DNA of 64,000 nucleotides. Source: Trileptium ribeirensis. Its lineage: Eukaryota; Nematoda; Enoplea; Enoplida; Thoracostomopsidae. Below the pieces are notes generated by a model. That model was not told where the DNA came from. It searched no databases and saw nothing but the letters and a program-made list of their open reading frames with translations. The stretch lies in the NCBI GenBank assembly GCA_030248225.1, contig JASANE010018708.1, positions 1-64,000 of the forward strand, written 5' to 3'. Within the stretch, counting starts at the first letter, position 1; each line of letters starts with the position of its first letter. Below, one piece after another: positions 45,579 to 64,000 of the stretch. The translations under genes were made by a program, and so were the position numbers.

Positions 45579-46262
45579 TCAAATATCAACCACCAGCACA
45601 AAGTGATCCGGATATTCTGCATTCAACAAAGCAGCATTACAGTGATAAACGTAAATTGCCCCACCGGGCGTATTTAGCTCATTCGGTGAGAGATTTCTCC
45701 AACGGTAATCCAGTCGTGCGCCAGATAGCATCGGCGTAAACAGGTATATTGGAATACCAAAGCAGCGAGCTGTCATCCGGATATGCCATTCTTCCGCCCA
45801 GTGGTTAATTTCCATTAAATTTGTCAAATGTTCCTGGTAATCTTGCTCGGTATCCGGTTGATCATCTTGAGCCAGGATGAAATTCAATACGGCGTTTCGA
45901 ACGTTTAAATGGTGGTTTTGGCTGCCAGTTAATGCCTGTGATATGGACCTGTAGAAACAATTGCCGTCGGACATTGCCGCATTCCCAGTGTCTCTGTCGC
46001 GCTAAATCACACGCGGTTGACGTGATGCGGAAATCATTTGCTCGCCTCCTAAAGGAATCATTAATCCTCGCTTTACTGGTAAGCGAAACTCGGTGGCTTT
46101 TACGAAACGTTGTTGTATGGTTAATGGCTTGAACAGGATCTGTGTGGAACGGTCCTCAATTATTCTTGGAATATTACCGGTTTGCGATTGTAGGCCAGAC
46201 GTTGAGGGTTGCTCTGGATCATTAGCCATTAGAGATCCTTTTGCTGTTGTCATCGGCGTCAC
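45579..46262 (-). CDS. Helitron OTU-domain cysteine protease (one in-frame stop)
   Basis: An ovarian-tumour-type (OTU) domain is read from 45974 down to 45579. It has SDGNCFYRS, with the Asp and catalytic Cys of the OTU box at the start, and ends YPDHFVLVVD with the catalytic His. The middle contains HWAEEWHI, matching the conserved E-W block. An 86-codon frame from 46262 is in the same frame, is separated only by a TAG at 46004-46002, and overlaps the helicase stop. The likely intact ancestor was therefore one longer ORF. OTU enzymes remove ubiquitin. In animal Helitrons an OTU domain is a known accessory, thought to modify host or element proteins. Whether the 131-codon piece alone is translated is unknown. 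Confidence 0.75.
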
Positions 46263-47692
46263 ACGTTTTTTTGACAGGCCTTTGAGTCTTTTTTTTGATC
46301 GCTCGACTTGGAAACCACGTTTTGGTTTCGCAGTGTCACGTCGGTACTGCTTTTTGATTCCAGTGGCGGCAAACTTTCCAAGTAATCTGGAATTGCTATG
46401 GATCCATCCATGCGATATAGACGACGGTCCTCGTGTAGTCTCTCCAGCATTCGCCTTCTAGTGTTGTCAGAATATATCCTGCTGAACAGAAACGGGTGTA
46501 GCATCATGTTAGTTATACGCTTCACTCTGGACAGTGCTACATAGGTGAGTCCTGGCGAAAATTCTCGGTCTCCAATTGACACAACTGCTGATGTCAATGT
46601 CGCACCTTGTTGTTTGTGAACAGTAACTGCCCATGCAAGCTGCAGAGGTATCTGTTCTCGGCTACAAATGTTCCCATCACGCTGAAATGTAACCCGAGCA
46701 GGAAACACCGGGAAGCTGTGGTTGATATTTGGGTTATATGAAGGACCACGGTATCCTGGAAAAACACACACAATGCACTCGGGCAGCTGCGGTGGTCCAC
46801 CGGATGAGTAGATAATAGATTGAACTACGCCAAAGGTTCCGTTACACAGGCCAACCCCAGTGCAAATGTTCTTCGTCAACATAACTTTAGCGCTCTCACA
46901 CATCATTATTTTCTTCTGTAAACCACCAGCTTCATCCGCACTCGCGCTTCCAGCACCGAAACCTGTATGTTTTGCTTCAATGACAGCTGTTGGTTTTCCA
47001 GTTTGCCGAAGCTTCGCAATGTTGCATTCGGCAACATCGTCTCGTTTTGCAAACACTTGAGGTGAGTCGCTGAACCTATCAACATTCGCTTTTGATAACC
47101 TATCTGAAAACCTTGTTTGCAGAAGCTGGAAGTCTTCCTTCGTAGGTATGCCATTGCGGAGACGTATCAGGAGGTCGAGGAAGCGGCCATCTTCACTTTG
47201 CCGTTCAACCTTTGACAGCACAACAGCCTTGTCAATGCTCAGATATGCCGCCCTACCTGCATCAGAAAGCTTTCCACCTCCTTTTGCAGAAAACAATGGG
47301 GCGTCCAAAACGGGATACAGCTGACCAAAGTCTCCAAAGAAAACCACGCTTCGGCCTCCAAAAACCTCTGTGCTTGAGCCAGCAAACGCTTGACGTAACC
47401 TTTTGTCCACTGTCCCCAGAAGTGCCCTACCTATCATGGACACTTCGTCACAAAGATAAATGCTGATATCTTTGTGCTCTTCCTGGAACTCTAGCAATGC
47501 TTGGCCTTTCAAATCTTGTATGTCTTGCGACCGAACTGCAGGAATCCTCAAGGCAGAATGTAGCGTTTGCCCACCGATGTTAAATGCAGCCGTGCCGGTT
47601 GGCGCGAGCAACATACAACGGTTTCCAAAATAAGACTTTAGGCAGTGGATTAGATACGACTTTCCAGTTCCGGCACATCCGTATACGATCAT
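46259..47692 (-). CDS. Helitron Pif1-like helicase
   Basis: 477 codons from ATG 47692. Superfamily 1B helicase: Walker A GCAGTGKS (residues 5-12), Walker B CDEVSM (81-86), motif III GDFGQLYPV (120-128), the WAVTVHKQQGATL block (354-366) and TYVALSRVKR with the arginine finger (383-392). It unwinds DNA during rolling-circle transposition. In Helitrons this domain is normally fused behind Rep in one polypeptide. Here the matching helicase N-terminus (NLNEAQRAF, SEGAVR) is readable in this frame upstream of the ATG to about 47830. The Rep frame ends exactly across this ATG. A -1 shift (consistent with a one-base deletion) is needed to join them. The C-terminal tail is Lys/Ser-rich. Confidence 0.9.
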   Translation of the reverse strand: MIVYGCAGTGKSYLIHCLKSYFGNRCMLLAPTGTAAFNIGGQTLHSALRIPAVRSQDIQDLKGQALLEFQEEHKDISIYLCDEVSMIGRALLGTVDKRLRQAFAGSSTEVFGGRSVVFFGDFGQLYPVLDAPLFSAKGGGKLSDAGRAAYLSIDKAVVLSKVERQSEDGRFLDLLIRLRNGIPTKEDFQLLQTRFSDRLSKANVDRFSDSPQVFAKRDDVAECNIAKLRQTGKPTAVIEAKHTGFGAGSASADEAGGLQKKIMMCESAKVMLTKNICTGVGLCNGTFGVVQSIIYSSGGPPQLPECIVCVFPGYRGPSYNPNINHSFPVFPARVTFQRDGNICSREQIPLQLAWAVTVHKQQGATLTSAVVSIGDREFSPGLTYVALSRVKRITNMMLHPFLFSRIYSDNTRRRMLERLHEDRRLYRMDGSIAIPDYLESLPPLESKSSTDVTLRNQNVVSKSSDQKKDSKACQKNV

Positions 47693-50600
47693 CCGAACAG
47701 CACCTTCAGACTGCGTGATAATCCTGAATGCCCGTTGCTGCGCTTCGTTAAGATTGTCAACAACAACTGACTCAGTCGTGTCGATATTCGCACAGGGCGC
47801 AATCGTGGCACAAACCGCCGTGCTTGGTCAACATCGATATCAACAGAAGATGCTGTCCAGTCAAACTTGGGATGATCACATCTCTCGGGGTGATTTGCGA
47901 ATTCAGGATACATTCGACAAAGAAGCATCCAATCGTCGAGCTCTTCATCTCTCTGTTGCAGCTCTTCGTCATCTTGTGCATTATTGCGTTCGTCTTGTGG
48001 TTGTGCGTTCACTTCAGCCTGCATTTGGTTATGTCCTATTCTGGTTACATCTGAGTGTTGCTGGAACAATCTCCATGCGTCGATGGCTGATTCTGATCCC
48101 ATTGTCAAATCCGCTATCTTCCTGAAAGGCTTGTACATAATAAGCGACTGCAATGCAAACTCGGAATGACGTGGATGGTCTGGATGCGGAGGGATATAGG
48201 GATGAACGCAAACAATCGCTGGGTTATCCTTTAGCCTAAAGCTCACTTTCCCGCCATATTTTTTCGCCGTATAGTTTTGAGTCACAGTGTAAAGGGACTT
48301 GTCGTTGAGTTCCGCTGGTCGGCGCGCATACATATCAATTGCGTTAGATTTGATCACCTCCTCCGATCCCGACGTGTCAACTTCACGTTGACCACTTGTG
48401 TTGAGATGAATGAATGTCCTCGAGCACATATACAGTGGCAACTGCAGCAGCAAATGCATGGTTTCCTCAGCGGAATAGTCTCGCTCTTCCACAGTTTTCA
48501 TGAGAATGTTTTGAACGACGCTCTTCAGCGGGGTGGTTCCTTCTTTGCGTGCCAACACGGATTGGTAGAACTCAGCGAATGATAAAGACCTCGGCTCTTC
48601 CTTTGTGGCGTACTTGACCACGTATGACATCAATTTCTCCCTGGATACAATAACCTTGACGTCGCAGTTCGCGCGATGAGTTTGAAGAATCATCTTGTTA
48701 TGTGAATTGATCCTCTCATCATTTCGCCGTGTCTCGTAGTCAAGGTTTACTTTACCCTTGTCGTTGACGTCTACAGCTCGCGTCACTGTAGTCTCCGGGC
48801 AGCGATCCTTGGGGAATTGGAACCTGCAGACAAATTGTCCAGCGTCATTCTTCTTTTTCAGACAATATCCTAGTCGACATCTTGTGTGGCGTTGAACCGT
48901 GTTGACTAAGTCCTTGTAATCTATTTCTTGTGATTCCACATCCATCTTTATTACGTCCGATAGCAATTTTTCACATGGATTTGACGCTGGAATGTAGGTT
49001 TCTCCCCTGCCGTTGACATCGAGTGCCGGGTTCCAAGTCGTCATGACGTCATCGATGAAGATCTTCAGCTCCACATCCCTTGTACCGTCCGCTTGAGATT
49101 TTATTTCGGCTACATCCACACCGTCCAGCAACCATGCCACGCCATGTACATGAGGACTTCCACGATGCTGCCATTCAAAACGAAGCCAATAATCTTTAAA
49201 CTTGAGATCCGCCTTTAAAACTGTTTTGATGTATTCATCAACACGAAAGTAGAAGAACCAATCCGCTATAAGTGGGTTATCGTTGACAGCTGCAGACTTT
49301 GACTGATATCCTGGAAGCAATCGGTGCAACTCTGGCCAATACGTATCGGCTGCAGAAAGAGTGAAGAAAATGTGTGGCATTCCCAGAACATCGATCATGC
49401 ACATCAGCTCTCCTCTTCTTGAATGCCAATAGGGTTTCCCTCCGCGCAGATTGGATCCAAAATGTAGCATCCGCTTTCCAAGTGCATTGCGCTCCTGTGC
49501 ACCCATTTCTCGTAGGTTGTCGACCGTAAGCCTTGCTTCTCCAGGATTCTGTCGGATGAAGACTCGACCTGTCTGAAGTGCTGTCCATCGCATGCAGCTA
49601 TTGAGAGCGAAATACGGAAATCGCGGATGCCTTGCAAACCTACCATCCTTGTACAACAGTAAATGCCGGAAATATTGGTATGGGAAAACGCTTTCATCCC
49701 TAGCGTCTCGGAGATCACCTTTTCCGCTCGGGAACAGCACTGGAAAGGCGCGAGCAATGTAACCCGGGCTGTCAAATTCGCTCACTGGATCGGCTGCAAT
49801 GGCAGGATACGTCATGGGCGAAGGAATCAGCTGCTGACCTGTAGAAACAGCATCGATTAAGTGATCGGCAGCTCGGCGTATATGGTCGGCCTCTGAGATT
49901 CGCGGAACATGCACAGGGACAAAGGTTGACGTGCAACGTTGATCGTCGGCGTTGTTTTCCACTTGGCCTTCATCATCGTAGTCTTCAAGTTCACGAACGT
50001 CGAAGCCCTCGAAGTCCAACTCTCCATCGTCTGGTAGCATCGCTGCTTTACTCCGATCAATGTTAATATCCGCATAGTGAGGATTGTGCGTCTTTAGCCA
50101 GCGCAAGGCGTCAAGCACCACCTGCCGTCGCACACGAAAGTCCTTATGACTACCCTTTTCCCCTTTCTTTCGAACAATGATGACGCCTACTTCCGACGGC
50201 AAACGCGGTAGATCTCGTACAAAATGAGATATATCTTGAGGCAGGTTAATTATGTGCCCCCTGTACCCTCTTTGACCTCCAGGCAAACGATATGCAGCCA
50301 TCATAACAGTAATCTGCGAAATAAGCATTTCTTCAATTACTGTCAAACCGACAAGCTCTTGCGGCACCGGTCCAGGATCCATATTGTTTCTGTCGGAGAA
50401 CTTGTGCGGATTTCTCTTGCACCTATTACATACTGTCGAGCCATGAGCTAAGGTCACAAGCTTTGATGGTCCTCGCTCGTTGCAATTTAAGCAATCCGAA
50501 AACTTCACATCTTTCAGACTGTCAGCAAATTCCACTGTAGACTTAGTAAAGCCGTGATGTTCGCCAACCTCCGACCTAGATGATTGACTGGAAGGAACCG

Positions 50601-51090
50601 AGCTACCTTGTTGGCGCTGATATCTTTTGCTCCACGCATTGGTTGAACGCACAGAGGCCTTCTCAGGTGAAGTCATCAGCGACCGCCTTCTGCTTTGGCG
50701 CGTTTTGGCCGTTTGCAACCGTTTAGTCTTTGCACCCGGTGACTCTGCAGCGATTTGGTCAAGAACGCGCTTCCTGCTCCTGTCGATACGGGCTCGACGG
50801 GTTTTTGGAGTTTCTGTGGAACTAATACGTGTATTGACATTTGCCTTTGACCTGTCAATCCGATCACGTCGCTCAGGTGACGTTTCGTGCTGCAGTGTTT
50901 CTTCCACAACGATTCTATTACGATTAATATGGGCTCGACGCGATCGCGGCGTTTCTTTGTCATAGTCTTTTTTCTTCCGATCTCTGTCGCCGGCGAGCCG
51001 TTTCTCCGTGGTACTTGGCGTTTCCTGTGAACGACGCTTAGTGGCAGCTACTTGAAACTGCTTGCGCCGTCTTCTATCCTTCGATACCAT
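47689..51090 (-). CDS. Helitron Rep (HUH endonuclease) protein
   Basis: 1133 codons. Residues 1-150 are very basic and contain degenerate repeats of the form ETP..RRARIDRSR. Residues 200-224 hold a C-x2-C...C-x2-C knuckle (CLNC, CNRC). A conserved region around 235-370 precedes the Helitron-specific domain (about 430-650). The Rep core follows: HUH motif HVH at 647-649 in RGSPHVHG, a Cys/His cluster (RCRLGYC, 737-743; CRFQF, 755-759), and the catalytic tyrosine pair Y823/Y827 in SYVVKYATK. It nicks and joins the element's DNA ends. The frame then runs on to 47689 past the point where the helicase frame takes over. The final roughly 50 codons are thus probably out-of-frame. The start is the first ATG, 100 bases inside the proposed 5' terminus. 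Confidence 0.9.
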   Translation of the reverse strand: MVSKDRRRRKQFQVAATKRRSQETPSTTEKRLAGDRDRKKKDYDKETPRSRRAHINRNRIVVEETLQHETSPERRDRIDRSKANVNTRISSTETPKTRRARIDRSRKRVLDQIAAESPGAKTKRLQTAKTRQSRRRSLMTSPEKASVRSTNAWSKRYQRQQGSSVPSSQSSRSEVGEHHGFTKSTVEFADSLKDVKFSDCLNCNERGPSKLVTLAHGSTVCNRCKRNPHKFSDRNNMDPGPVPQELVGLTVIEEMLISQITVMMAAYRLPGGQRGYRGHIINLPQDISHFVRDLPRLPSEVGVIIVRKKGEKGSHKDFRVRRQVVLDALRWLKTHNPHYADINIDRSKAAMLPDDGELDFEGFDVRELEDYDDEGQVENNADDQRCTSTFVPVHVPRISEADHIRRAADHLIDAVSTGQQLIPSPMTYPAIAADPVSEFDSPGYIARAFPVLFPSGKGDLRDARDESVFPYQYFRHLLLYKDGRFARHPRFPYFALNSCMRWTALQTGRVFIRQNPGEARLTVDNLREMGAQERNALGKRMLHFGSNLRGGKPYWHSRRGELMCMIDVLGMPHIFFTLSAADTYWPELHRLLPGYQSKSAAVNDNPLIADWFFYFRVDEYIKTVLKADLKFKDYWLRFEWQHRGSPHVHGVAWLLDGVDVAEIKSQADGTRDVELKIFIDDVMTTWNPALDVNGRGETYIPASNPCEKLLSDVIKMDVESQEIDYKDLVNTVQRHTRCRLGYCLKKKNDAGQFVCRFQFPKDRCPETTVTRAVDVNDKGKVNLDYETRRNDERINSHNKMILQTHRANCDVKVIVSREKLMSYVVKYATKEEPRSLSFAEFYQSVLARKEGTTPLKSVVQNILMKTVEERDYSAEETMHLLLQLPLYMCSRTFIHLNTSGQREVDTSGSEEVIKSNAIDMYARRPAELNDKSLYTVTQNYTAKKYGGKVSFRLKDNPAIVCVHPYIPPHPDHPRHSEFALQSLIMYKPFRKIADLTMGSESAIDAWRLFQQHSDVTRIGHNQMQAEVNAQPQDERNNAQDDEELQQRDEELDDWMLLCRMYPEFANHPERCDHPKFDWTASSVDIDVDQARRFVPRLRPVRISTRLSQLLLTILTKRSNGHSGLSRSLKVLFG

Positions 51091-51300: not shown

Positions 51301-51456
51301 TTTCATTTAAAAAAATTCGTCAAAATCGGCCGCTGTTGAAATAGAAAAGTCGTGTTGACAGAGAAAAAAAACGGACGCGCATATTTTTCACCCTATGTTC
51401 TCCTAGTGAGAATTCTTGGATTCCGAAGCTAACGCTTCTCCATCTCCGAATTCAAT
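51301..51456 (+). repeat. Direct repeat, left copy
   Basis: Aligns base for base, without indels, to 52154-52309 (offset 853) with about six mismatches. It runs from tttcatttaaaa to ccgaattcaat. Looser similarity extends about 30 bases further left in both. The copy continues into the sequence 51457-52153. Confidence 0.9.
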
Positions 51457-52309: not shown

Positions 52310-55300
52310 GCGAGACGCAGTATACGCACAAAAATAACAGCTTTATACATATTCAATTGCAATTTTTGTTCAAAAATGCTAAAACAATCAAACACGCTTA
52401 ACTAAATAGTTAATTGTACTAGGACCAGTTCTGGCCCTAAAGGGTCCCAGTTACACCACCATTCCCCGCTGTGGTTCCCAGACAACCCCGGTTTCCACTA
52501 CTCCCCGGTGAAGCGCTAGTTGACCTAACGGAATCGCTTAGCTTAGCAGGCTGCCGCGGGTTTACCAGTGTTCGGCCCGGTCACTATACTGGCCCACGTA
52601 TCTAGTAGTATGAAAGGCCCCCTGAGGGAGGGTCAACCTCTAGGCCTGCTCAAAGGTGTTAAGGCTGACCCGCCTTTCCCTCATTCTGTCCAAAATTTCT
52701 TGACAGTTGTGGTTTCTACGTCTCGAATCTGGGTACGTGAACCGGGTCGAACGGTGCCTTTGATTAGCCTAGTTCGGACCTTTCCCTTAGAATGACGAAA
52801 CTAGGCAACTCCTGGAGACTGATACCAGGGCCCTAATCTGTTCGAAGCAATTTGATTAAGACAGAGGACCGAGGCCTTCTTACCGGACCCCGTGATAAGC
52901 CGGCTGCTAGTTTCTTAGACTGCTCATCGGATAATACCGAAGTGGTTCCTTGAAAGATTTGTTCGTGATTCCTAGTATTGTGCTATTGTTTTTATTCCTA
53001 TGCTAACGCTTTGGATTTAGCTTGTACTATAGGAGCTTTAGTCGTCCGAGAATAGAAAAACGTATCGCCTAAGCATAAAAATAACACTCTAGCAATTTAT
53101 TAAAGCAATGCGAACAGGTGTATATTTAAACATGTAAGTGTAAGGGGGTACGCGGGCAGCCCAACGTCTACCTGCAGGAACTCCGCACCCCGAAATTTCT
53201 ATTGCCCCCAGGGGTGGGCTCAGTGCAGAAGAGAGTTGCCGCCCTCTGGTCCTGGTGTTCCTGGGCAGGACCCCCGTGCGAATACGGCCAACGTTGTCTA
53301 GTGGATGATATAGGTCCCCCCCGGTGTGGCAACCCGTTTGTGCGATGAAGGGGAAATGGGCCGCTCTCGTACACCCACTGCCGCGCGCGGGGAGCTAAGG
53401 AACAGGTGAACGCCCTCCAGCAGGCCAACGACTAACTAATGTGCACTTGTTTCATATAGGAATCGCAGTAAATTCTGATGCGTTTTGGTGTGTGTGTTTC
53501 TTCCGACGATGTTGTTTGCCAGCACCGGAAATGTGTCTTACTATCTTGCCACTTAAACTACTACAGAAGCCTGAAGGGTTGATAGTGGAGAAGTGCGTTG
53601 GTCGTACGAGCGGGACATATTGTTTCGGTTAAGTAGTGACGCTGGGTTAAGGTAGTTGGTGCGGGACCTAGCCCGACCATAAGCTTTGCTATTGCTTCGC
53701 TGAGAATCGCGGTTAACACTAGGAAAACACCAAACTACAAAACCCCATGAGCTTATTACGCTGATATACAATGGAACGACTATGCAAGAGTTTATTGCAA
53801 GCATTGGGAACGGCATAAAAGTTACCAAAACAGTACAAGCTACACGAAAGAATGCTTATTATTATTATTTACATGCAGGAACAAAAATATTCGTCGATCA
53901 TACTATTTACAAGTACCAGAATCAGTGGATATGAATACAAGTTGATCGCTTTGACCCACACTATCGTTTACGTTGCTTGACAGGGCTTAGCGAACAGAGC
54001 ATAAGAAAATCATTTTGTTTCATTTTGGCCGGGGTTCATGAAGGAAAAGAGAAAAGTATTTTGGGTGTAAATTTTCAGGGTGGCGAGGCCGACTGTTGCA
54101 CCGTACTCAAAAATTCCACGCGAGCATGCTCACAAGCCAAACTCAATGCACTGCTCCCAAAGAGCACCACCTATTGCACCACCCGATTAGCCAAAGCCGA
54201 AACGCTAAAGTAATTGGCCGCATGTAAATTGCCTTGTTTTGACCTGTCCAAAACCACCGTAAAACATGAGCAAACCGGTGAAAGCTTTATAAATAAACCA
54301 CGATCCCACCGCAACTGCGATAGGATCGGGAACTCAGTACGTTCGCTGCTGCAAACCCGAACTCGGGAAATACAAGTTGGGTAAATTTAAACTTTGTGCA
54401 AAAGTCGTCAATAAGATTCGCTCACTGAGGCCTGACGGATCCTGAACGTACAGCGGGCATGCTAAGAAACAAGACCGCCACTGTGAAAGAAACACCCTGT
54501 CGGTTGAGAAAATAAAACCGAAAACCAAAAAGGAAGCCATCAGGCGCACGTGAGAATTCAATTAAACTAGAAAAGTGCAAAACTAAAGAAAAAATCGTCT
54601 GAAAGTCGACCAGTTTCTAAACCAGCAGGCCCGTACTGAGCTCCCCGAGTTAAGTGTACACCGCATTTTATACTCCGATTTAAATTTCCCACAATTACTC
54701 AAAACTAACTGGGCCAATCACGAGCCCCGATGAACAGTTACAGAGAACGGCCGTCCGAATCAGCAGTATCATAAAACATCAAACGAAAATAAGTACGTTT
54801 ATATAACCAACAGAGTTTCATAAGACTTTTATCGCATCCCGAAATTATCACTTTGTATTTTCTTATCACCGAATTATGGTAGTCCTTAAGATTAGATTTA
54901 GTATCCGAGATAACATTTGAAACCGGGCGCCGTAAAATGAATATTTTGAACTCTATTTGTAAACCTTATTTGACTCGCAAGATAACGATGTTACAAACTT
55001 AGTAGAATAACGGCTGGCTGGCGTCGAAAGGCCAGTTGTAAATACTTTACTGGGCGAGATAATAAAATGTTAGATTTACAACCGCCCACCATAAAAATTC
55101 CAGAGCTAGATGGTAGATTTTAAATGTTCCCTACCGCAACAGAGAGGGTTAATCAGTAACTGGACTGCAATGTTTGAAATTAAGAAACAGTCGAACAAAG
55201 GAAAAACGCCACAACTGTCAGCCAACGATTCCGCCTGCCATTGACGCACACAACTCCAGTATTTAAACGTGGCACAAAAGTACAGCGAAATTTTAGGCAC

Positions 55301-56276
55301 TGAATAAGCAATGATCGCCGCCGTGCGCTACCACAGAAGCGAAATGAGAAACAGTGCACAAGAGCAACCCGCCAGACGCCGCAGTCCCACGCCAAAAACT
55401 CGACGTCGGTCAGAACCCACTCTAAAACAAGATGCCCGCCTAGCCAAAAACAGAATCCCCACTCGCACGGATAACGCCACTGGGTGCCACGATACACAAG
55501 AAAACGCAGAGTGCCCCGAGGGGCGAGCCCTTCCGCCAGACATATCACTCTGCGACGCCTGGCCGAAACATCGAAGAAATACGCAATATAAATACCATCG
55601 CAATAACACGCCGATAACATTTCTAAACGTACACACTGCCGAGAACAGATGTAAATGTCGAACTCCTCCCTACCGAGATACACTCTGTCAAAGTACTGCA
55701 ATAGTGACCGCTAAATTTCACATTTCAAAAGATGCAGAAGTTGTAAATGTTCACGGATAAACGCTACGATCGAATTACAATAAACTACGCGATACTGCAT
55801 AAACTATAACCCGCGATCACATACGAAACAATTGATAACGATCCAGTCGCGGACGCAATTGACCATGTTAGAGATAACGCTCGCCCCATCCCGTAATTTA
55901 GCAATAGCAAGTAAATCACTTGCAAGCAGTAAAAATGCCTGTGAAGTTACCGGCCACAGTCTTAACGGACCGATAAAAAAACCCAGTACGCGCGACTGCA
56001 CACGTAGAGAGAGGCGCAGAGTGCAGTACTGTCGCAGCACAAAGGCGTCCGCCAACAAAAGAAAGACACCGAGCGTCCGCGACATATACACCATTCACCG
56101 AGTATTAAAATACTCTAGTCTCACTGCTATAAAAACGCGCTATACAAAACGAGCACGAAGAAATGACACCCAAACACAGGGTCGAACACAGGTCGGAAAC
56201 AGGCATTCGTCGTCGAAAAAAGATCGTAGAGGATTGTGAGTGGAAGGGTTACGCACCGGGAAACCCTTCCCTCACA
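52309..56276 (-). repeat. Candidate 3' LTR of the gypsy-type element
   Basis: On the minus strand the LTR start is proposed at 56276, where a polypurine tract (aaaatgggggatt) is followed by TGTGAGGG. Just inside, 56235-56276 is a 15-bp-arm palindrome. The other end is proposed at 52309, where the interrupted direct repeat breaks off and the sequence starts TGCGAG, an imperfect match to TGTGAG in inverse orientation. Possible signals on the minus strand are a TATA-like tttataaag near 54285 and AATAAA near 53790 and 53096. At about 4 kb it would be unusually long. An alternative end is 53139 (TGTAAGGGGG), which would give 3.1 kb. The 5' LTR lies outside the window, so this cannot be confirmed here. 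ORFs inside it look accidental. Confidence 0.4.
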
Positions 56277-56289
56277 AATCCCCCATTTT
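56277..56289 (-). promoter_or_regulatory. Polypurine tract
   Basis: On the minus strand aaaatgggggatt directly precedes TGTGAGGG. A purine run ending just before TG is the plus-strand primer site expected immediately upstream of a 3' LTR, and its position downstream of the last ORF fits. Confidence 0.6.
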
Positions 56290-57166
56290 CGTTTTGTGAA
56301 TTGAAAGATTTTACTTAAGAGTGAGCAATTGTAACATAGACCGCCGACCGGTGTCCGTTCCCGACGATTATATGCCATAAACCAGACAAGCCATGTGCAC
56401 ACGTATGCACACCGCAATGGTCTACCAACAACAAGGTTATACAATTGCGATACAATTACATCAATCAATAACCGTCGATATAAAACATGCTAATTGAATA
56501 GTAGCTGCCAAGCTGACAAAACGCGAGTTTACTGAAACGATTTAGTCGGGTTCCCAAAGAATGCCAGGGCACCACTAAGTAACCTATATGCCTAACCCCA
56601 ACAGTACTGGCTCGATAGGAGTACCAGTACCTAGATCCGTTTGCCGGCTGTTTAATTCCTGGTTAAAAAAATTTGTGGTTAAAAATTTGAGACCTGTTAA
56701 AGTAAAGTGGGAAAAAAGAAAAAAATTTGTTTGGAATGCCAGGGTGACGCCAGTGTCTGCTTTCGCATGCGTCCAAGTTTGGTAAATATGGCTCTGATAT
56801 TGTAATAACTATGCTTAGCGGAATTACGGAATTTGCTCGACTCTGGCATATTTGTGGGTCCTGGTGGCTTTCCTGCTTGTGATTAGATTTCTATTTCGAA
56901 AACCAGAAGAGAAAGGAAGGGCTACCCTACCTGTTGCTTTGCTGATCAGGATATGCCTTACTAAGGAAAATGTTGATTGGGGCAGATTCAACAGATATCG
57001 CTACATTAACTGCTTTGGTGCTTGTCAGCGAGTCGAGGACGCTTGGTTTACTAGCGTTCGAGTACTCCTCTTCCGTTTCAGAATTTTAAATGAAACTAAA
57101 AGAAGCCTAGGTTTGGGTTTTCTCATGTTTATTTTGGAGTACTCGTTACCCTCGCGGAGAAAGATG
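56290..57166 (-). other. 3' untranslated part of the retroelement
   Basis: Between the stop of the NADAR ORF and the polypurine tract. No coding signature is seen on the element strand. An open frame on the opposite strand (56852-57181) is not supported. Confidence 0.5.
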
Positions 57167-58366
57167 TTATTCGCACGCTAGCTGTTGCAATAGATAATCC
57201 ATTTCCTCCAGTCCCGCCGGTGTGAGGGTAGGCTCATTCATGGGATACACTACGTACGCCGTATGTGGCAAAGTCGGTTCCCATTTCCATGATTCGATGT
57301 CTTGCAGACTTGGAGGTAAAGGTACAACGCGAATGGGCTGTAAATTTCTCATTTGGGCCAGTTTGTTTTCCAATTTTGTTGCGACGCCCTGAGCCCACTC
57401 GGTTTTCGGTGTCTGGTAGATGTTCCAGTATGGCGACGGCGGGATGACCGATATTACGATATTTGCCGCTATTATGTGCCTTAGATATGATAGCTTCCTG
57501 GCAATGGCTTTAGTGTATGTGGTCGCATTCAACAACGTGATTTCGCCAGCTTTATTTCGTGACAGGGCGGCTTGTTGTCCGCCAACGAAAATAATTTGAC
57601 TAATCGGTGGTTTGGCTACCAATACAGCGAGTTGAACCAATTCCGTGAAAGATGCGTCTGGCCATGATAGTATTGTTTTATCCTGGTCGTTTGTTTGAAT
57701 GCCCAGCAGTGGGAATATGCAATGGTCGCCGATAACAATGGTACGCGGCCATGGACTCTGCCCAGTACGGCGAAGGCTCCGTACCTCCTCCAGAATCTTT
57801 CCCATGACGTTTTTAACCTTGTGATTTAATGGCTTGAAGTGAAGCTCGTGCGCCTGCATACCGACGCCCCAAAACATATCCTGTGGATTAGCCTCGAGTA
57901 GTTGCGTGTTGCCCAAGTTCTCGAGCAGGTTCCCGACGTACGGGTCTTCGCATTTTTGCAGAACCAAGGGTCGCATTATCGATGGCAGCATATGCCAGAG
58001 TATTGCTTTGCCGATGGCAGACAAATACTGCTCCTTATGCGCTCGAGCAATAGCTTTCACCTTAGCGGGGTGTAAGTTGTCGCGTCCCACCTCATCCATG
58101 GCTTCGGCTTGGTCGTATAAGTATGATATGGCGAACTGATATGCCTGCTCCACTGTATGGAAACTGCGGCCGGCGACATGGATGTTGCCGTGGATTTTGT
58201 AGAAGTTTGAGAGGGGCGTGAGGCCAGTACCCTTACTGAGGAACGGTTCCCATCGTTGCGACCAGTCAACCTCGTAGTCTGGGACACAATGGTACGTGTC
58301 GAAATACGTGTCACTGGGACCGCCCGGAGAGTATCGTTGTGATGTGGCGGCAACGCTTTGGTCCAT
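57167..58366 (-). CDS. Retroelement ORF3: NADAR domain plus SGNH-like region
   Basis: 399 codons from ATG 58366. The frame is open without any ATG-independent start signal up to the pol stop at 58507-58505. Numbering from the GTG at 58480, the NADAR (YbiA-like) domain spans about 76-238. It has LSNFY (90-94), GRSFHTVEQAYQF (105-117), W162, the RPLVLQKCEDPYVGNLL block (170-186) and DMFWGVGM (201-208). NADAR enzymes are N-glycosidases acting on ADP-ribosyl compounds, including ADP-ribosylated guanine, and riboflavin intermediates. Residues 246-430 resemble an SGNH hydrolase fold: VIGDH where GDS is expected, FVGGQQA in place of the G-N block, and a final LTPAGLEEM. The usual Ser and His are absent, so this part may bind rather than cleave. 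The start is chosen because the ATG follows a strong splice acceptor by three bases. It occupies the place of env in retroviruses. Confidence 0.85.
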   Translation of the reverse strand: MDQSVAATSQRYSPGGPSDTYFDTYHCVPDYEVDWSQRWEPFLSKGTGLTPLSNFYKIHGNIHVAGRSFHTVEQAYQFAISYLYDQAEAMDEVGRDNLHPAKVKAIARAHKEQYLSAIGKAILWHMLPSIMRPLVLQKCEDPYVGNLLENLGNTQLLEANPQDMFWGVGMQAHELHFKPLNHKVKNVMGKILEEVRSLRRTGQSPWPRTIVIGDHCIFPLLGIQTNDQDKTILSWPDASFTELVQLAVLVAKPPISQIIFVGGQQAALSRNKAGEITLLNATTYTKAIARKLSYLRHIIAANIVISVIPPSPYWNIYQTPKTEWAQGVATKLENKLAQMRNLQPIRVVPLPPSLQDIESWKWEPTLPHTAYVVYPMNEPTLTPAGLEEMDYLLQQLACE

Positions 58367-58392
58367 GACCTGAGAATGAAATGAAAGCATGG
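58367..58392 (-). promoter_or_regulatory. Candidate 3' splice site ahead of ORF3
   Basis: The minus strand reads a pyrimidine-rich stretch (tttcatttcattct) then cag at 58372-58370, followed by gtc and the ATG of ORF3. The tract is translatable in frame but makes poor protein sense. This supports an acceptor for a subgenomic mRNA, as used for env in retroviruses. The donor would lie beyond the window. Confidence 0.55.
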
Positions 58393-58504
58393 TTATACAA
58401 TACATAAATGAAGTTAAGATACTGTGACAATTGTTGACGGGGCAATATGGTACAGACGACGGTGGCAGGTATGTTGCCACGTCGGGACAGTTGATGTACT
58501 GCTG

Positions 58505-61500
58505 TCAATCGGACTCCGGCGGCAACGGCTTCAAAGTACGCAGCTCTAGCTGGCTCGGAGTCAAACTTCCGGCACCGGTTCCGTGCGGTGAGTCGTCGTC
58601 CGATGCGGGGCGATTACGCGCTGGTTTGCCCTTGCCTGTGATACTATGCTTCTTCGTTGTTCCTCGTTTGATTGCTGGCGTTGTTCGGTTCGTAGCTCTA
58701 GTCCTGGTCTTGTCGCGCGGTTTCGGAGACAGCGGTGGTGATTCACCACTGGAAGAATCGTCCGAATCCTCCGGCATGCGGCGAAACTTTACCGACTGTT
58801 TGGTAGTGTTAGCAGGTGCCTTTGCGTCGGGTTTCCTGCTAGTTATTCGCAACGCTTGTTGAAGAACGTTATCGATCGCTTTGTCGTACTGCTGATCGAT
58901 GCGCTGCACCCTATCGGTCTTGATTTGGGCTGGTCCCCTGGGTTTCGACTGTTCGCTGGCTCGTGTAAGCTGCGAGACGGGAGCGGCTGTAGCCTGGACG
59001 CCGAGTTGGCTACCAACTGGCGTGTTATGACTACGGTCGTGAGTCAAGAGCGGTCGGTCGTCAATCAGAAGGTCTTGCTGTTGTATTTGGCTGGGCCGTA
59101 TTGGTTGCCCAGGTTCAGCGTCTCCGAGACCATCCGATGAGTCCGACGGCAGACGAGACCGGGGTGACGCCGGCATGTGAGCAGGAGGTGAATCCAACGC
59201 GTCAATTGGTTCCGCTTCGGACGAATCTGGGTCATAATGTGGCGCGTCCGCAGTACGCTGCGCTTCCTCAAATTCCCAATTTGCGCGAAAAACCTCGTCT
59301 CCCTTCAGAGGTCGCAACAACTCAGTCCGATCTATGGCGGCAAGCGGATCTGGTCCGTCAACTGCAAACACTCGTGGGGGAAACGCTTTCTTAGTGCGGT
59401 TCATGTGCACTGTTAGAATCGGCCCATCAGGTATTCCTACGAGCTGGACCGTCATGCTTGGAGCTTTGACTTCGATGACGCGGTAGGGTCCGTGCCATCG
59501 GCGAACCAGTTTCCGGCTCAAATGCGGGGACCAGTTGTAGGCGTACACCCAAACTAAATCACCAGGTTGATAGCTTGCCTCCTTTGCGTTCTTGTTATAC
59601 TGTGCAGCCTGCTTTGATTGTGCGTTCCGCAGAGCCTGGCGTACGTTTTGTCTAACGCGACGCAGCCAGCCCAGAACGATTGTCCGATACGCGCTGACCC
59701 CTGAGTAGTTTTCCAAACAGTGCTTTTCCGCCATGTCACCCGGCAGTCTTGGGTCAAATCCGTGCATTAGTACAAACGGGGACTCGCCAGTGGTGCTATG
59801 GATGGCAGCGTTGTAGGCCATCGTGACGTAAGGGAGCATTTCGTCCCACCGCAAATGGTCGTTAGCCGAAAGGCTGGTTTTCAACATTTGTAGCAACGTC
59901 CGATTGAACCGTTCGATTTCCCCGTTGGCCTGGGGGTGGTGGGCAATCACCTCACGTTTGTAAGTACTAACAATGGCGCATATACTTTTAAACAAGGCGG
60001 AGACAAACTGTCTTCCTTGGTCAGAGAGCAGCTCCTTCGGAGCTCCGAACCGGTTCACCAGTCCGTCCACGAATAGCTCAGCCACGGTTCTGGCTTTCTG
60101 GTCGCTAGTAGGAAAAGTGATGGCAAATTTGGTGAACTGGTCAATGAACGCAACCACATAACGGTTTCCAGACAGTGTCGTGACTCGAACGTCAAGAATA
60201 TCAACGAAGACCCGGAACATTGGTTGCGTCGGCACGGGCAGCAGACCCATAGGTGCCTTTGGTTTCTTGGGCGGGTTCTTTGACGTTTGGCATACTAAAC
60301 ATGTCTGAATCCATCGAGACACGTCTCGGTTAATGGTAGGCCAGTAATAAAACATGGCGACTTTTGCTACCATCCTGTTACGACCAGGGTGTCCAGCGTA
60401 CACACCCTCGTGTTCGCGTGCAAGAATAGTTTCTACCAAGCTAGCAGGAACGCAAATTTTGGGCCTAGTGTCCGCAACAACACAAGGCTGCTTGTATAAA
60501 ATCTCGTCCTCGTTGAGCTCAAACTGTGAGGCAGTCAACAAAACTCGACGAGCCGCTTTATCGTCCTCGGGGAGTACGCCTGTACGCAGATGATGGACGA
60601 TGGGGCCAAAATATTCGTCCTTTTCTTGTTCTTCCGCAAGATTGGCAGCGTCACAACCGAGCTCGGGAGCGTTCAACTCCTCGGCGAGATAAATGTCTGG
60701 CTCAAGAGTCAGCTTATCTCGCCGCCTCTCTAAAGGTTGCTGTTCGGCCATCAAGGCGTTCGGTTCATCCTCCACATCGAATGGACGTCTACCAAACCGT
60801 CGTTTCCAATGTGGTACATGCCCTTTTCGTTGGGGCTGTGCATCCGATATAGAACTGTCAGAAGAGATCGAATGCCCGGATCCCTGATCCGCCTCATCTC
60901 CTCCACCGGCTTCTTTTGACGTCGTTGGTTGCTGGACCGGTCTGTCAGTGAACAAATTAGGTGATGCTCTTTGTTTTGACGGTGTTTTTCGATTCTGCCC
61001 AACAATGGCATTCACCATCCGCATATCCTTTCGCCGTTCTTCCAACGGAACTTCCTCCGATGCTTCGTCACTATGCGGCTCGTGTCGTGGATCGCGTGAC
61101 AGAGCATCTGCGTTGCCGTTCGCCTTTCCCGGCCGATATACGATTTCGAAACTCCCGAACTCAACGAGCAGTTCGTTGCTCCACTGCGCAATCCGCGAAT
61201 TCTTGGGCGGTTTTGCGAAGAGTTGTTTCAGTGGTTTGTGGTCGGTCTCCACCACGAATTTATGCCCGTACAGGTAATGTTTGAAGTATAACACGGCCCA
61301 GCGTATAGCCAGCGCCTCTGCTTCGATCGGCGGGTAGCGTCTCTGGTACGACAGGAGTGCCTTGCTGGCATAAGCGATGGGCTTGATTCCGCCGTCGGTC
61401 TTCTGCGACAGTACTGCCCCCATGGCGAAACCTGACGCATCAGTTTGTACAATAAACGGCACACCGAAATCGGGATAGATTAGCAGAGGATCGCGACTTA

Positions 61501-64000
61501 GGATGTCCTTAAGCCGGTCAAATGCTTCCTGGCAAGCCACAGTCCATTCGAAAGATGCGTCTTTGCGTCGTAGCCGGTTAAGCGGTTCCGCGATGTCTGA
61601 GAAGTTCGGTATAAATTTGCTATAATACGTCACGATCCCGAGAAAACTCTGGAGATGCTTCAGTGCTTCCGGTCGTCGAAACTGTTGAATAGCCAGTGTT
61701 TTCTCGGGGTCCGGCCGAATGCCTTCTGTACTAACGATGTGCCCAAGGTATTTCAGCGACCTCTGCCCGAATTGACATTTCTTCGGTTTGAGGCGGAGGT
61801 TAGCCTGCCGGAATCGGTCGAATACCTCGGCCAAATCAGCGAGATGTCGGTCGAACGACGGCGAAAATACCAAGATGTCGTCGATATATATTAAGCATTT
61901 CTCCCACTCTAGACCTGCTAACGCTAGTGCCATGCACCGTTGGAATGCGCCAGGTGAGGAATTCAGGCCGAACGGAAGCACGTTATACTCGAATTGGCCA
62001 TGGACGGTTACAAAGGCCGTCTTTTGTTTCGTAGCTGGGTCCAGTTCGACTTGCCAAAATCCTTTATTTAGGTCGAGACTGGACATAAATTTGGTATTCT
62101 TTAACGTGGCCAATATGTCGTCGATTCGGGGGAGAGGGTATGCGTCCTGTTCGACGACGGCATTTACCTTGCGGAAGTCAACACAAAGTCGCAGTGACCC
62201 GTCACTTTTGTTCACATAAACTATTGGGGAGCCCCACGGCGAATCCGATGGCTGTATCACTCCGGCGGCTATCATATCGTCAATCTCTTTGCGAAGTGGC
62301 TCGCGAAGAGCATGTGGCAGCCGGTGAGGTATCTGTTTGATGGGTCGGGCGTCGCCCGTTTGTATCGTGTGTGGCGCTAAGGTACACCGACCCAAATCAA
62401 AATCATCGGTGCTGAAGACGTCTGCGTTACCCGCAATGACATTCCGGAGTTGTTTCTGTTGCGGAGCTGTCAGAGTTGAATTAGCTAGCTGGATTTTCTC
62501 AAGAACAAGCCTAGCCCGTTCATGATTCATGTTTCGGCGGTCTGCGTTGACTCTCTGCAGAACCATAGTCGGCTCTTGACGCATGTTGTTCAACCGTCCA
62601 ACCGGCTGACTTTGGACGTAACTCAACAGTTCCTGGCCTCGCGTAGTAATATACTTAACTTGCTCTAAGTTGATATGCTCTAAATATCCTATCAGTTGTC
62701 CCGCATGTAAGCAAACCGGCTGGTCAGTGAAGTTGACGGCGGCCACTGGAACCGTCGGTCGCCCCGTCATCACAAGGGCATTGGATAGCACTGGGTTCAT
62801 GAGCGTCGATAGTGGTGTGAACACAGCCGAACCGGCATGTGTGACGTCCGTTTCAGGCACTGCGTTGAAGAAGGTTTCCGTGTTCGGCGGTATGGTCATC
62901 CGCGTGCGACTCACCACCGCGACCAGGCTCGGGAAACCGCCAGGTGGCGCTGCGAACGGTATTCGGTAAACTTCTTCGGTGGAGAAGTCGGAAATATCCA
63001 GACAGCGATGTAAGAAGTCTATGCTGAACTTGGACATAGATGACATAAAGTCCGTGCCGAGGATGAGTTGGTATGGTGGATCCGGTACGACGCGTAGAGT
63101 GCACTTCGAAGTAAGCGGCCCGAGGGCTACCCTCGCAGCTGCAACTCCAGAAGTGGCTAATTCCTGCATGGAGGCAGTGATTATCCGCGGTCGTTGCTCC
63201 TGACGGATGTCTAAATTAGCTTTTCGCGCTGCAACGAGTGAAATCACCGAGACGTCGGCACCGGTGTCCAACAACGTTAGCACGGGGACTGAGTTTACTT
63301 TAGCATTGACCACAAGTGGCGAGACCGTTGCTGCCAGAGTATTCATTTGCTTAGCTGCCTTTGCTTTTGAAGTACAAGGATCGTCGCCAGGAAACCTCAG
63401 CTCTTTGATCGGCGTGCGGTCACGACGAGGTACGCCGCTGTAGTATCGTGGATCCCGGTCTAAAACAACGTGTGGGGATCGCTGTGTCAGTCCGGCCGCG
63501 GTCCTAGCCTGGTATCGCGTATTATAGGGTGGCGTAATATTAAATGGTTCAATCGGTTCGACTTTAGGCTCCTGATGTGGTTCAGACGGCATGCTGATCA
63601 TGAGCGGGTGGCGAACATCAGGGAGGGCTGTCCGTTCCGCGGGACGCCGACGATCGGCAGGCGATGTATAATGTTCCCAGCTGGAGCGGAGTCGAGAACG
63701 ACAGTCATAACTTTTGCAGTACCGGTATCCCGCGCAAGCCAATACAACTACAACCGCCATCAGTATGATTATTGCGTATGCGGGAACGCGCGAGCCAGCG
63801 GTGATTGGCAACGTGAAAGTCTTCGTAAGCTGCCCACTCACCAGTTGCTGTACGTGAAGATTAGCTGCTTTGGCCTCGTTCAATGAGGTCCAGGTGAGTG
63901 GCTTGAACGAGATGTCCGGGGGCGCGGTAATATTTAGTTTTGCAGCTAGGGTAACAGAGAAGTAGCTCGGTTCCAATGTACTAGTGAGCATAATATCGCC
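58505..64000 (-). CDS. Retroelement Pol polyprotein with N-terminal membrane segment (5' partial)
   Basis: Open from the window edge (1828 codons from ATG 63991, and three more codons stay open before it). Residues 1-68 contain a sequon (NIT, 20-22) and a heptad-like stretch. Residues about 69-92 form a membrane span (IIILMAVVVVLACAGY) followed by a Cys/Arg-rich tail, the layout of an envelope protein C-terminus. The protease has LLDTGADVSVI (240-250). RT runs about 555-760 with LDLNKGFWQVELD and active site YIDD (702-705). RNase H starts at QTDAS (849-853). Integrase has an H2C2 knuckle (H1194, H1201, C1231, C1234), a DD35E triad (D1264, D1324, E1360, in QANGEIERFNRTL) and a GPY/F module (GPYRVIEV, 1501). 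Unusual parts are a roughly 210-residue polar linker between RNase H and integrase, and a roughly 280-residue acidic, Ser/Pro-rich tail. No frameshifts. It ends with TGA 25 bases before the GTG of the ORF3 frame, in the same frame. Confidence 0.95.
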   Translation of the reverse strand, partial: GDIMLTSTLEPSYFSVTLAAKLNITAPPDISFKPLTWTSLNEAKAANLHVQQLVSGQLTKTFTLPITAGSRVPAYAIIILMAVVVVLACAGYRYCKSYDCRSRLRSSWEHYTSPADRRRPAERTALPDVRHPLMISMPSEPHQEPKVEPIEPFNITPPYNTRYQARTAAGLTQRSPHVVLDRDPRYYSGVPRRDRTPIKELRFPGDDPCTSKAKAAKQMNTLAATVSPLVVNAKVNSVPVLTLLDTGADVSVISLVAARKANLDIRQEQRPRIITASMQELATSGVAAARVALGPLTSKCTLRVVPDPPYQLILGTDFMSSMSKFSIDFLHRCLDISDFSTEEVYRIPFAAPPGGFPSLVAVVSRTRMTIPPNTETFFNAVPETDVTHAGSAVFTPLSTLMNPVLSNALVMTGRPTVPVAAVNFTDQPVCLHAGQLIGYLEHINLEQVKYITTRGQELLSYVQSQPVGRLNNMRQEPTMVLQRVNADRRNMNHERARLVLEKIQLANSTLTAPQQKQLRNVIAGNADVFSTDDFDLGRCTLAPHTIQTGDARPIKQIPHRLPHALREPLRKEIDDMIAAGVIQPSDSPWGSPIVYVNKSDGSLRLCVDFRKVNAVVEQDAYPLPRIDDILATLKNTKFMSSLDLNKGFWQVELDPATKQKTAFVTVHGQFEYNVLPFGLNSSPGAFQRCMALALAGLEWEKCLIYIDDILVFSPSFDRHLADLAEVFDRFRQANLRLKPKKCQFGQRSLKYLGHIVSTEGIRPDPEKTLAIQQFRRPEALKHLQSFLGIVTYYSKFIPNFSDIAEPLNRLRRKDASFEWTVACQEAFDRLKDILSRDPLLIYPDFGVPFIVQTDASGFAMGAVLSQKTDGGIKPIAYASKALLSYQRRYPPIEAEALAIRWAVLYFKHYLYGHKFVVETDHKPLKQLFAKPPKNSRIAQWSNELLVEFGSFEIVYRPGKANGNADALSRDPRHEPHSDEASEEVPLEERRKDMRMVNAIVGQNRKTPSKQRASPNLFTDRPVQQPTTSKEAGGGDEADQGSGHSISSDSSISDAQPQRKGHVPHWKRRFGRRPFDVEDEPNALMAEQQPLERRRDKLTLEPDIYLAEELNAPELGCDAANLAEEQEKDEYFGPIVHHLRTGVLPEDDKAARRVLLTASQFELNEDEILYKQPCVVADTRPKICVPASLVETILAREHEGVYAGHPGRNRMVAKVAMFYYWPTINRDVSRWIQTCLVCQTSKNPPKKPKAPMGLLPVPTQPMFRVFVDILDVRVTTLSGNRYVVAFIDQFTKFAITFPTSDQKARTVAELFVDGLVNRFGAPKELLSDQGRQFVSALFKSICAIVSTYKREVIAHHPQANGEIERFNRTLLQMLKTSLSANDHLRWDEMLPYVTMAYNAAIHSTTGESPFVLMHGFDPRLPGDMAEKHCLENYSGVSAYRTIVLGWLRRVRQNVRQALRNAQSKQAAQYNKNAKEASYQPGDLVWVYAYNWSPHLSRKLVRRWHGPYRVIEVKAPSMTVQLVGIPDGPILTVHMNRTKKAFPPRVFAVDGPDPLAAIDRTELLRPLKGDEVFRANWEFEEAQRTADAPHYDPDSSEAEPIDALDSPPAHMPASPRSRLPSDSSDGLGDAEPGQPIRPSQIQQQDLLIDDRPLLTHDRSHNTPVGSQLGVQATAAPVSQLTRASEQSKPRGPAQIKTDRVQRIDQQYDKAIDNVLQQALRITSRKPDAKAPANTTKQSVKFRRMPEDSDDSSSGESPPLSPKPRDKTRTRATNRTTPAIKRGTTKKHSITGKGKPARNRPASDDDSPHGTGAGSLTPSQLELRTLKPLPPESD

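Follow-up and report, generated by a model that had tools for sequence, protein, structure and literature searches.

The 64,000-nt stretch of DNA analyzed here (the window) contains the 3′ part of a Ty3/Gypsy-type LTR retroelement, all of whose features in the window lie on the minus strand. The element spans 24.9 kb with an interior of 18.6 kb, and it encloses a third open reading frame, ORF3, that lies directly 3′ of the pol frame on the same strand. The 3′ LTR is in the window (positions 53139–56276; 3138 bp with TG...CA ends) and was delimited by blastn against the 5′ LTR, which lies beyond the window on the same contig (L010:2866–6003, equivalent to C12367:74866–78003). A polypurine-tract-like run, GAAAATGGGGGA (56279–56290; read directly), sits just inside the 3′ LTR, and TGG is present 3 nt after the 5′ LTR. 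Pol, as delimited with Pfam, occupies 58505–63991 (1828 aa) and continues upstream of position 64000, the open frame that includes it being 2838 aa long once followed past the window edge. It encodes a retroviral-type aspartyl protease (63041–63310; PF13975, E = 1.8e-11), a reverse transcriptase (61733–62215; PF00078, 2.3e-34), an RNase H (61169–61546; PF17919, 2.4e-33, and PF17917, 2.9e-33) and an integrase with an H2C2 zinc finger and rve core (59975–60451; PF17921, 2e-18, and PF00665, 2.5e-11). LTRs and this protease, reverse transcriptase, RNase H, integrase order are those expected of Ty3/Gypsy elements. Thus, the preliminary description of this DNA was right to place ORF3 directly downstream of a gypsy-type pol, on the same strand and inside the element, since all four enzymes are found and 3.1 kb LTRs flank the whole.

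The two LTRs are 5.6% divergent (174 of 3124 aligned sites), and in the one copy examined the 4–5 bp flanks of the LTRs do not agree, so that no target-site duplication is seen. The window copy may therefore be a recombinant with LTRs from two insertions, and for these reasons LTR divergence was dropped as an estimate of age.

Farther upstream, 1658 codons form a gag-like open stretch (L009:3025–7998, minus strand), in which a zinc-knuckle-like motif is seen by eye and Retrotrans_gag matches only at E = 0.017; it is followed by one in-frame TAG and then by a 1007-codon env-like stretch. By eye, the C-terminal part of the gag-like ORF and the N-terminus of the next stretch have a repeated unit in common (YLEAYIRQ.../YLEIFIRR...). 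The env-like region (L009:1–3021, minus strand, plus window 63713–63805) is placed between gag and protease in the pol frame and comprises, in order, a signal-peptide-like segment, an RPKR motif, a fusion-peptide-like segment and a transmembrane segment. The first three lie beyond the window, and the last (63713–63805; Kyte-Doolittle 2.77) closes the region N-terminal to the protease. RxKR/RxRR motifs occur at three further places in the element frames besides this RPKR, and comparison of the region with Pfam and PDB gave no match of weight to known fusion proteins. One distant family also has an env-like region before its integrase (38% identity over 106 aa). To our knowledge, an env-like region ahead of the protease is an unusual gene order for Ty3/Gypsy. 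Because this region is present upstream of the protease, ORF3 is not an env replacement; its described "env position" is accurate as a place 3′ of pol and does not hold as a substitution for env. Seven of the 71 integrase rows found in the genome (below) sit in open frames of 4597–4813 aa, and the lengths of these seven frames suggest that gag, env-like region and pol may form one frame. The overall layout of this giant element (about 25 kb) is LTR, gag/env-like/pol frame, NADAR ORF3, LTR.

ORF3 is open from 58480 to 57167 (437 aa), and its identification as a NADAR gene, for which a profile search had been proposed, is borne out by a match to PF08719 with E = 2e-14 and 54.6 bits against a cut-off of 35.1. 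The frame is intact as described, but the GTG at 58480 falls in the linker and is not upheld as its start; the true start is probably the ATG at 58366, just 3′ of an acceptor-like YAG, which gives a 399-aa protein (57167–58366, with the stop at 57167) that matches PF08719 at 1.7e-14. The NADAR domain comprises residues 50–197 of this form (57776–58219; PF08719, and PDB 8bau by profile at 8.9e-07). All seven aligned ORF3s, the window's among them, match NADAR, and the match is far beyond chance. Two gypsy ORF3s that were scored against TIGR02464 (riboflavin-intermediate N-glycosidase, YbiA) reached 57.4 (the window's) and 52.7 bits, under its cut-off of 73.7.

The protein also has a second, conserved C-terminal domain of ~195 aa (57170–57754) with 24 invariant columns in five sequences and no Pfam or PDB match of weight. 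An SGNH/GDSL identity was considered for it on the strength of motif order, which is only vaguely alike, and received no support from profiles. The AlphaFold single-sequence model has a mean pLDDT of 36, too poor for a fold search. A protein database search with ORF3 gave 3378 word-sharing candidates, none with E ≤ 0.001, and scans of viral and prokaryote genomes gave 6 and 33 pattern-matching stretches, respectively, among which tblastn found no relative.

A 3′ splice-site-like sequence, TTTCATTTCATTCTCAG (58370–58386), ends 3 nt before the ORF3 ATG. A pyrimidine-rich YAG is present 3–20 nt before the ATG in seven families whose ORF3s are 54–95% identical to that of the window, and the linker around it varies among these families, often with stops. 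Among 1056 further ATGs from these loci, only 0–6% equal the acceptor score, which was devised after the sites had been seen; in the three most distant families the signal is weak, and 14–25% of background ATGs score equally. ORF3 is in frame with pol after a TGA in the window and its near kin. Stop-codon readthrough from pol was rejected as a general route, as the linker has multiple stops in some copies (L016, L017, L019 and L020) and ORF3 is off-frame in others (L034 and its kin, and L045). The acceptor-like site suggests expression in the manner of retroviral env: most likely, ORF3 is translated from an RNA of its own, spliced or trans-spliced, with the acceptor just before the ATG at 58366.

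We searched the genome with the ORF3 protein (2292 first-look candidates, the best 96 of which were scored, in 98 rows) and took 30 ORF3 loci with up to 1.5 kb of flank, which with the window included represent 28 distinct copies. A pol match lies upstream on the same strand within 1.5 kb in 18 of the 30 loci, or 16 of the 28 distinct copies, again with the window included; one of them, L032, is a rearranged copy, in that its match is to the N-terminal part of pol. Among the 12 loci with no pol match in the flank, five (L036–L039 and L042) have an integrase match further upstream, and L015, L019, L026, L034, L035, L040 and L041 have no pol match within the 1.5-kb flank.

The reverse search, with integrase and the pol tail as query, yielded 5769 first-look candidates, from which 69 copies were scored (71 rows). 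In this set at least 26 copies, that of the window among them, are followed on the same strand by a scored ORF3, the ORF3 scoring having covered the best 96 candidates; no copy has a scored ORF3 on the other strand within 8 kb. Nineteen of the other 43 integrase copies, 17 of them from distant families, were probed going down the list with one skipped, and ORF3 NADAR sequence was found at the expected place in 14, all from the distant families: it runs through the 700-bp probe in 11 and is partial in three, one of these a short match. C6238 and C5631 retain C-terminal remnants of ORF3 only, which in C6238 come after a low-complexity run. ORF3 is lost in the remaining three; in wider stretches, C9968 has an internal deletion that leaves the last 27 ORF3 residues, and in C1224 and C3253 the homology ends before ORF3. 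In L058 (C6238:72150–74400), most of ORF3 has given way to this low-complexity sequence, a long A-rich tract that is perhaps an artefact of assembly. The same layout is present in distant families with ORF3s ~30% identical and integrases 42–45% identical. The preliminary description held that copies lacking ORF3 would indicate an adjacent host gene or a one-off capture; the copies examined show that ORF3 is neither, and is a resident part of the element.

The dN/dS test proposed for ORF3 was run by the Nei-Gojobori method and indicates purifying selection. The ratio is 0.156 between the window and a 95% identical relative and 0.036–0.112 over 21 pairs of seven copies of the L034 family. In five of these seven copies (10 pairs) the means are 0.080 for ORF3, 0.012 for its NADAR half, 0.115 for its C-terminal half and 0.266 for the pol tail, so the NADAR half is the most constrained of the four partitions measured. 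Between the window and L014 (399-aa form) the values, which rest on few changes, are 0.088 for NADAR, 0.153 for the C-terminal part and 0.41 for the final 491 aa of pol. Across families, dS is saturated in most cases (the finite values are 1.7–2.5), and the ratios are 0.08–0.10 for closer pairs and 0.36 for L018 with L044. Ratios this far below 1 show that in the families measured the ORF3 sequence is kept for its protein, under strong purifying selection. We know of few retroelements that keep an enzyme gene outside the replication set; here such a gene is kept across families whose ORF3s are ~30% identical, under selection stronger than that on the measured parts of pol.

NADAR genes are also carried by other elements in this genome. 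A PF08719 search gave 2317 first-look candidates, and all of the best 150, which were scored, match with E below 4e-33. The NADARs that were fetched form four groups in a 27-row tree (ultrafast bootstrap 100/99 for the gypsy group and 96–100 for the others); the joins between groups involve long branches and are unsure, and the gypsy NADARs occupy their own long branch. The groups are the window lineage, two Polinton-like lineages and a set of units with a UPF1-like SF1 helicase. The helicase-type loci, on contigs C7014, C11068, C14662, C9306 and C14184, have an AAA_12 domain in five of five cases (L048, L049, L055, L056 and L057). When such units were followed upstream, a Gypsy-type integrase was found before the helicase in four of four (L077, L079, L080 and L081; C14662 not among them); the integrases of L079–L081 are 67–92% identical to that of L077, and the integrase is 33% identical to the window's. 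This is a second, distinct Gypsy-type lineage, in which the integrase is followed downstream by a large SF1 helicase ORF and by a NADAR ORF.

Both Polinton-like lineages have an A32-like ATPase. The first (L004/L011 on C520, L046, L047, L050, L052 and L053) encodes an rve integrase with a chromodomain, the A32-like packaging ATPase, NADAR, a TATA-binding protein (PF00352, 1.1e-32 in L004) and, by eye, a DNA-polymerase-like ORF; the integrase with chromodomain and the TATA-binding protein were seen in this lineage only, the latter being, as far as we know, unusual on a Polinton-like element. The second (L001–L003, L012, L051 and L054) has a capsid-like ORF (a weak double-jelly-roll hint), the A32-like ATPase and NADAR, and in its NADAR the E..D..W block is altered to Y..D..F/L in three of five rows, with the other two off pattern. 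One Polinton-like NADAR (135.5 bits) and one helicase-type NADAR (128.1 bits) exceed the TIGR02464 cut-off. That four lineages of a single genome, two of Gypsy type and two Polinton-like, carry NADAR suggests a selective pressure common to unrelated parasites.

Comparison with NADARs of known activity is informative in understanding ORF3. The oomycete NADAR contacts ADP-ribose through K50, R79, W89, R93, W133, D130, E43 and E125, and K95, the equivalent lysine of the E. coli C7 NADAR, coordinates phosphate and is essential for guanine-ADP-ribose hydrolysis (PMC11543638). Residues at these positions were counted over distinct gypsy loci by tblastn without a motif filter, with mapping by alignment and spacing; 12 loci yielded no residue. 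The ribose-side positions are kept (oomycete numbering, in readable loci): E43 in 41/41, E125 in 38/39, D130 in 38/39 and W133 in 37/39, with departures confined to the broken copies L021 and L024. At K50/K95, the 41 readable gypsy loci have Ile (13) or Val (28), and Lys stands there in all 19 rows of the three remaining NADAR groups; those rows were chosen by motif pattern among 20 fetched loci, with L048 left out. The alignment reads as if the W89 and R93 positions were also replaced in the gypsy ORF3s, with a 5-residue insertion near them. K104 and R108 of ORF3 are invariant in the seven aligned proteins and probably match K75 and R79.

The ribose side is thus kept and the phosphate grip rebuilt, which makes ADP-ribosyl hydrolysis by ORF3 plausible but not secure. 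The enzymatic role first proposed for it has partial support: it fits the ribose-side pocket residues, and fits less well at the lysine required by a bacterial NADAR for guanine-ADP-ribose hydrolysis, which is Ile or Val in every readable copy. This lysine loss raises a sharp biochemical question: is ADP-ribose still erased, or has the substrate changed?

Env-bearing Ty3/Gypsy elements of the errantivirus type have a Ty3/Gypsy pol and, 3′ of it, a third ORF that is env and is probably expressed from a spliced RNA. The present element is like these in its pol, in a third ORF at that place that is probably expressed from a spliced RNA and in having an env-like region; it is unlike them in that the third ORF is a NADAR gene and the env-like region lies before the protease in the gag-pol frame.

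Gypsy elements with NADAR are already known as a kind (PMC12477816), so the arrangement, whose novelty the preliminary description had left open, has a described relative. In that 2025 report, Ectocarpus Gypsy elements (Gypsy-12_Ec32 and kin) have a NADAR of the YbiA family at the N-terminus of Pol, and Pacific oyster (Crassostrea gigas) Tx1 LINEs have a NADAR-like ORF1 (PMC12477816). The Ectocarpus elements are, like those studied here, Ty3/Gypsy LTR retroelements with a conserved NADAR in several families. In the same account they differ in having NADAR at the Pol N-terminus, in residing in a brown alga and in giving almost only bacterial blastp hits. The present NADAR, in a genome probably belonging to an invertebrate animal, has an ORF to itself 3′ of pol, is fused to a conserved C-terminal domain and has a probable splice acceptor of its own. 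The Tx1 elements are likewise animal retroelements with NADAR, but are non-LTR and carry it in ORF1.

DarT1-NADAR operons and T4-like phages have NADARs with the same YbiA-kind Glu / Glu-Asp-Trp signature that are also carried by parasites or defence units (PMC11543638, PMC11125620); the gypsy protein differs from these in its replaced active-site lysine, its fusion to another domain and its eukaryotic retroelement carrier. NADARs of RNA viruses (nidoviruses, hepe-like viruses and picornaviruses) also belong to invertebrate replicators and have been proposed to undo host ADP-ribosylation, but they tend to be domains of RdRp-bearing polyproteins (PMC9503650). A limited literature search, which makes a weak negative, found no earlier report of NADAR in a separate ORF behind pol, of that ORF being fused to another domain, of the loss of the lysine, of an env-like region ahead of the protease or of parallel carriage by four lineages.

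The best explanation, to which we give an even chance, is that ORF3, a resident accessory gene of this lineage of giant elements, is expressed by splicing and encodes an eraser that protects the element. As an eraser, ORF3 would act on the RNA, cDNA or replication complex of the element by cleaving the N-glycosidic bond of ADP-ribosyl or related ribosyl adducts there, and would so keep a modification made by the host (or a rival) from blocking reverse transcription or integration. The sequences show that the gene is there, where it lies, that several families have it, that it is under purifying selection and that other mobile lineages of the genome carry NADAR; from these we infer the splicing, catalysis, substrate and protective role. 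NADARs take ADP-ribose off guanine in DNA and RNA (PMC11543638, PMC11833690) and are the sole hydrolase family, among those tested, that removes it from guanosine in RNA (PMC11833690). The most economical reading would be a counter-measure or clean-up enzyme common to unrelated parasites. Should NADAR shield element nucleic acids, host restriction of mobile DNA by ADP-ribosylation in animals would become directly testable.

Counting against the eraser reading are the lysine loss, the replaced W89 and R93, the copies without ORF3, the weak acceptor in distant families and the few PARP rows. A PARP search gave 7 rows (from 14 candidates) on 5 contigs, and being intron-blind it can miss host genes, which makes the contrast with NADAR rough; a Macro search, also intron-blind, gave none from three candidates. 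No expanded PARP defence is visible in these intron-blind searches of the genome. More tentatively, and with doubt outweighing belief, we propose that ADP-ribosylation, based on nucleic acids or NAD, serves the host (or its parasite community) as a defence against mobile DNA, that at least four lineages (two Gypsy-type and two Polinton-like) took up NADAR as a counter-defence, and that a version private to the window lineage evolved, its phosphate pocket rebuilt and a second domain fused to it.

It is also conceivable, though rather unlikely, that the gypsy NADAR has lost its grip on the ADP-ribose pyrophosphate and either has a different N-ribosyl compound as its substrate or serves as a binding module (reader), the conserved C-terminal domain then giving the real activity or an interaction. 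This would account for the universal Ile/Val at the lysine position, the replaced W89/R93 positions with the insertion nearby, the separate long branch and the sub-threshold TIGR02464 scores; it is at odds with ribose-side E, E, D and W residues kept almost without exception, with the invariant K104 and R108 (probably K75/R79) and with the lowest dN/dS being that of the NADAR half, which suits an enzyme pocket. An RNA-processing role, for example in splicing or trans-splicing of element RNA, seems less probable still: SNA-3, a three-NADAR protein, acts in nematode SL1 trans-splicing (PMC9303266), and ORF3 itself seems to require splicing, but the presence of NADAR on Polinton-like DNA elements is not predicted by a role in retroelement RNA. 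Tuning of host-cell NAD or flavin metabolism, to which the name of TIGR02464 and PMC9303266 point in that YbiA-type NADARs cleave riboflavin intermediates, is very improbable, as nothing evident would lead two Gypsy-type lineages and two Polinton-like ones to share a gene of that kind and ORF3 is below the curated TIGR02464 cut-off. That ORF3 is a bystander, an adjacent host gene or one-off capture, is next to impossible, for the divergent LTRs with no matching target-site duplication, and hence a perhaps recombinant copy, would suit it, but ORF3 lies within the LTRs, has dN/dS well below 1 and recurs behind pol in the integrase copies counted above, a count that already refutes it.

Two further features of this genome may be recorded. 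Outside the retroelement, the window contains a Helitron-type pair of ORFs at 46259–51090 on the minus strand, one (47689–51090) with Helitron_like_N and DUF6570 and the other (46259–47692) a Pif1-like helicase by motif only; they overlap by 4 nt, and a pair of 156-bp repeats is present at 51301 and 52154. Elsewhere in the genome, L082 (C17193:64554–65603) is a piece of COX1 interrupted by stops, probably a mitochondrial sequence copied into the nucleus, that gives a weak hint of the invertebrate mitochondrial code.
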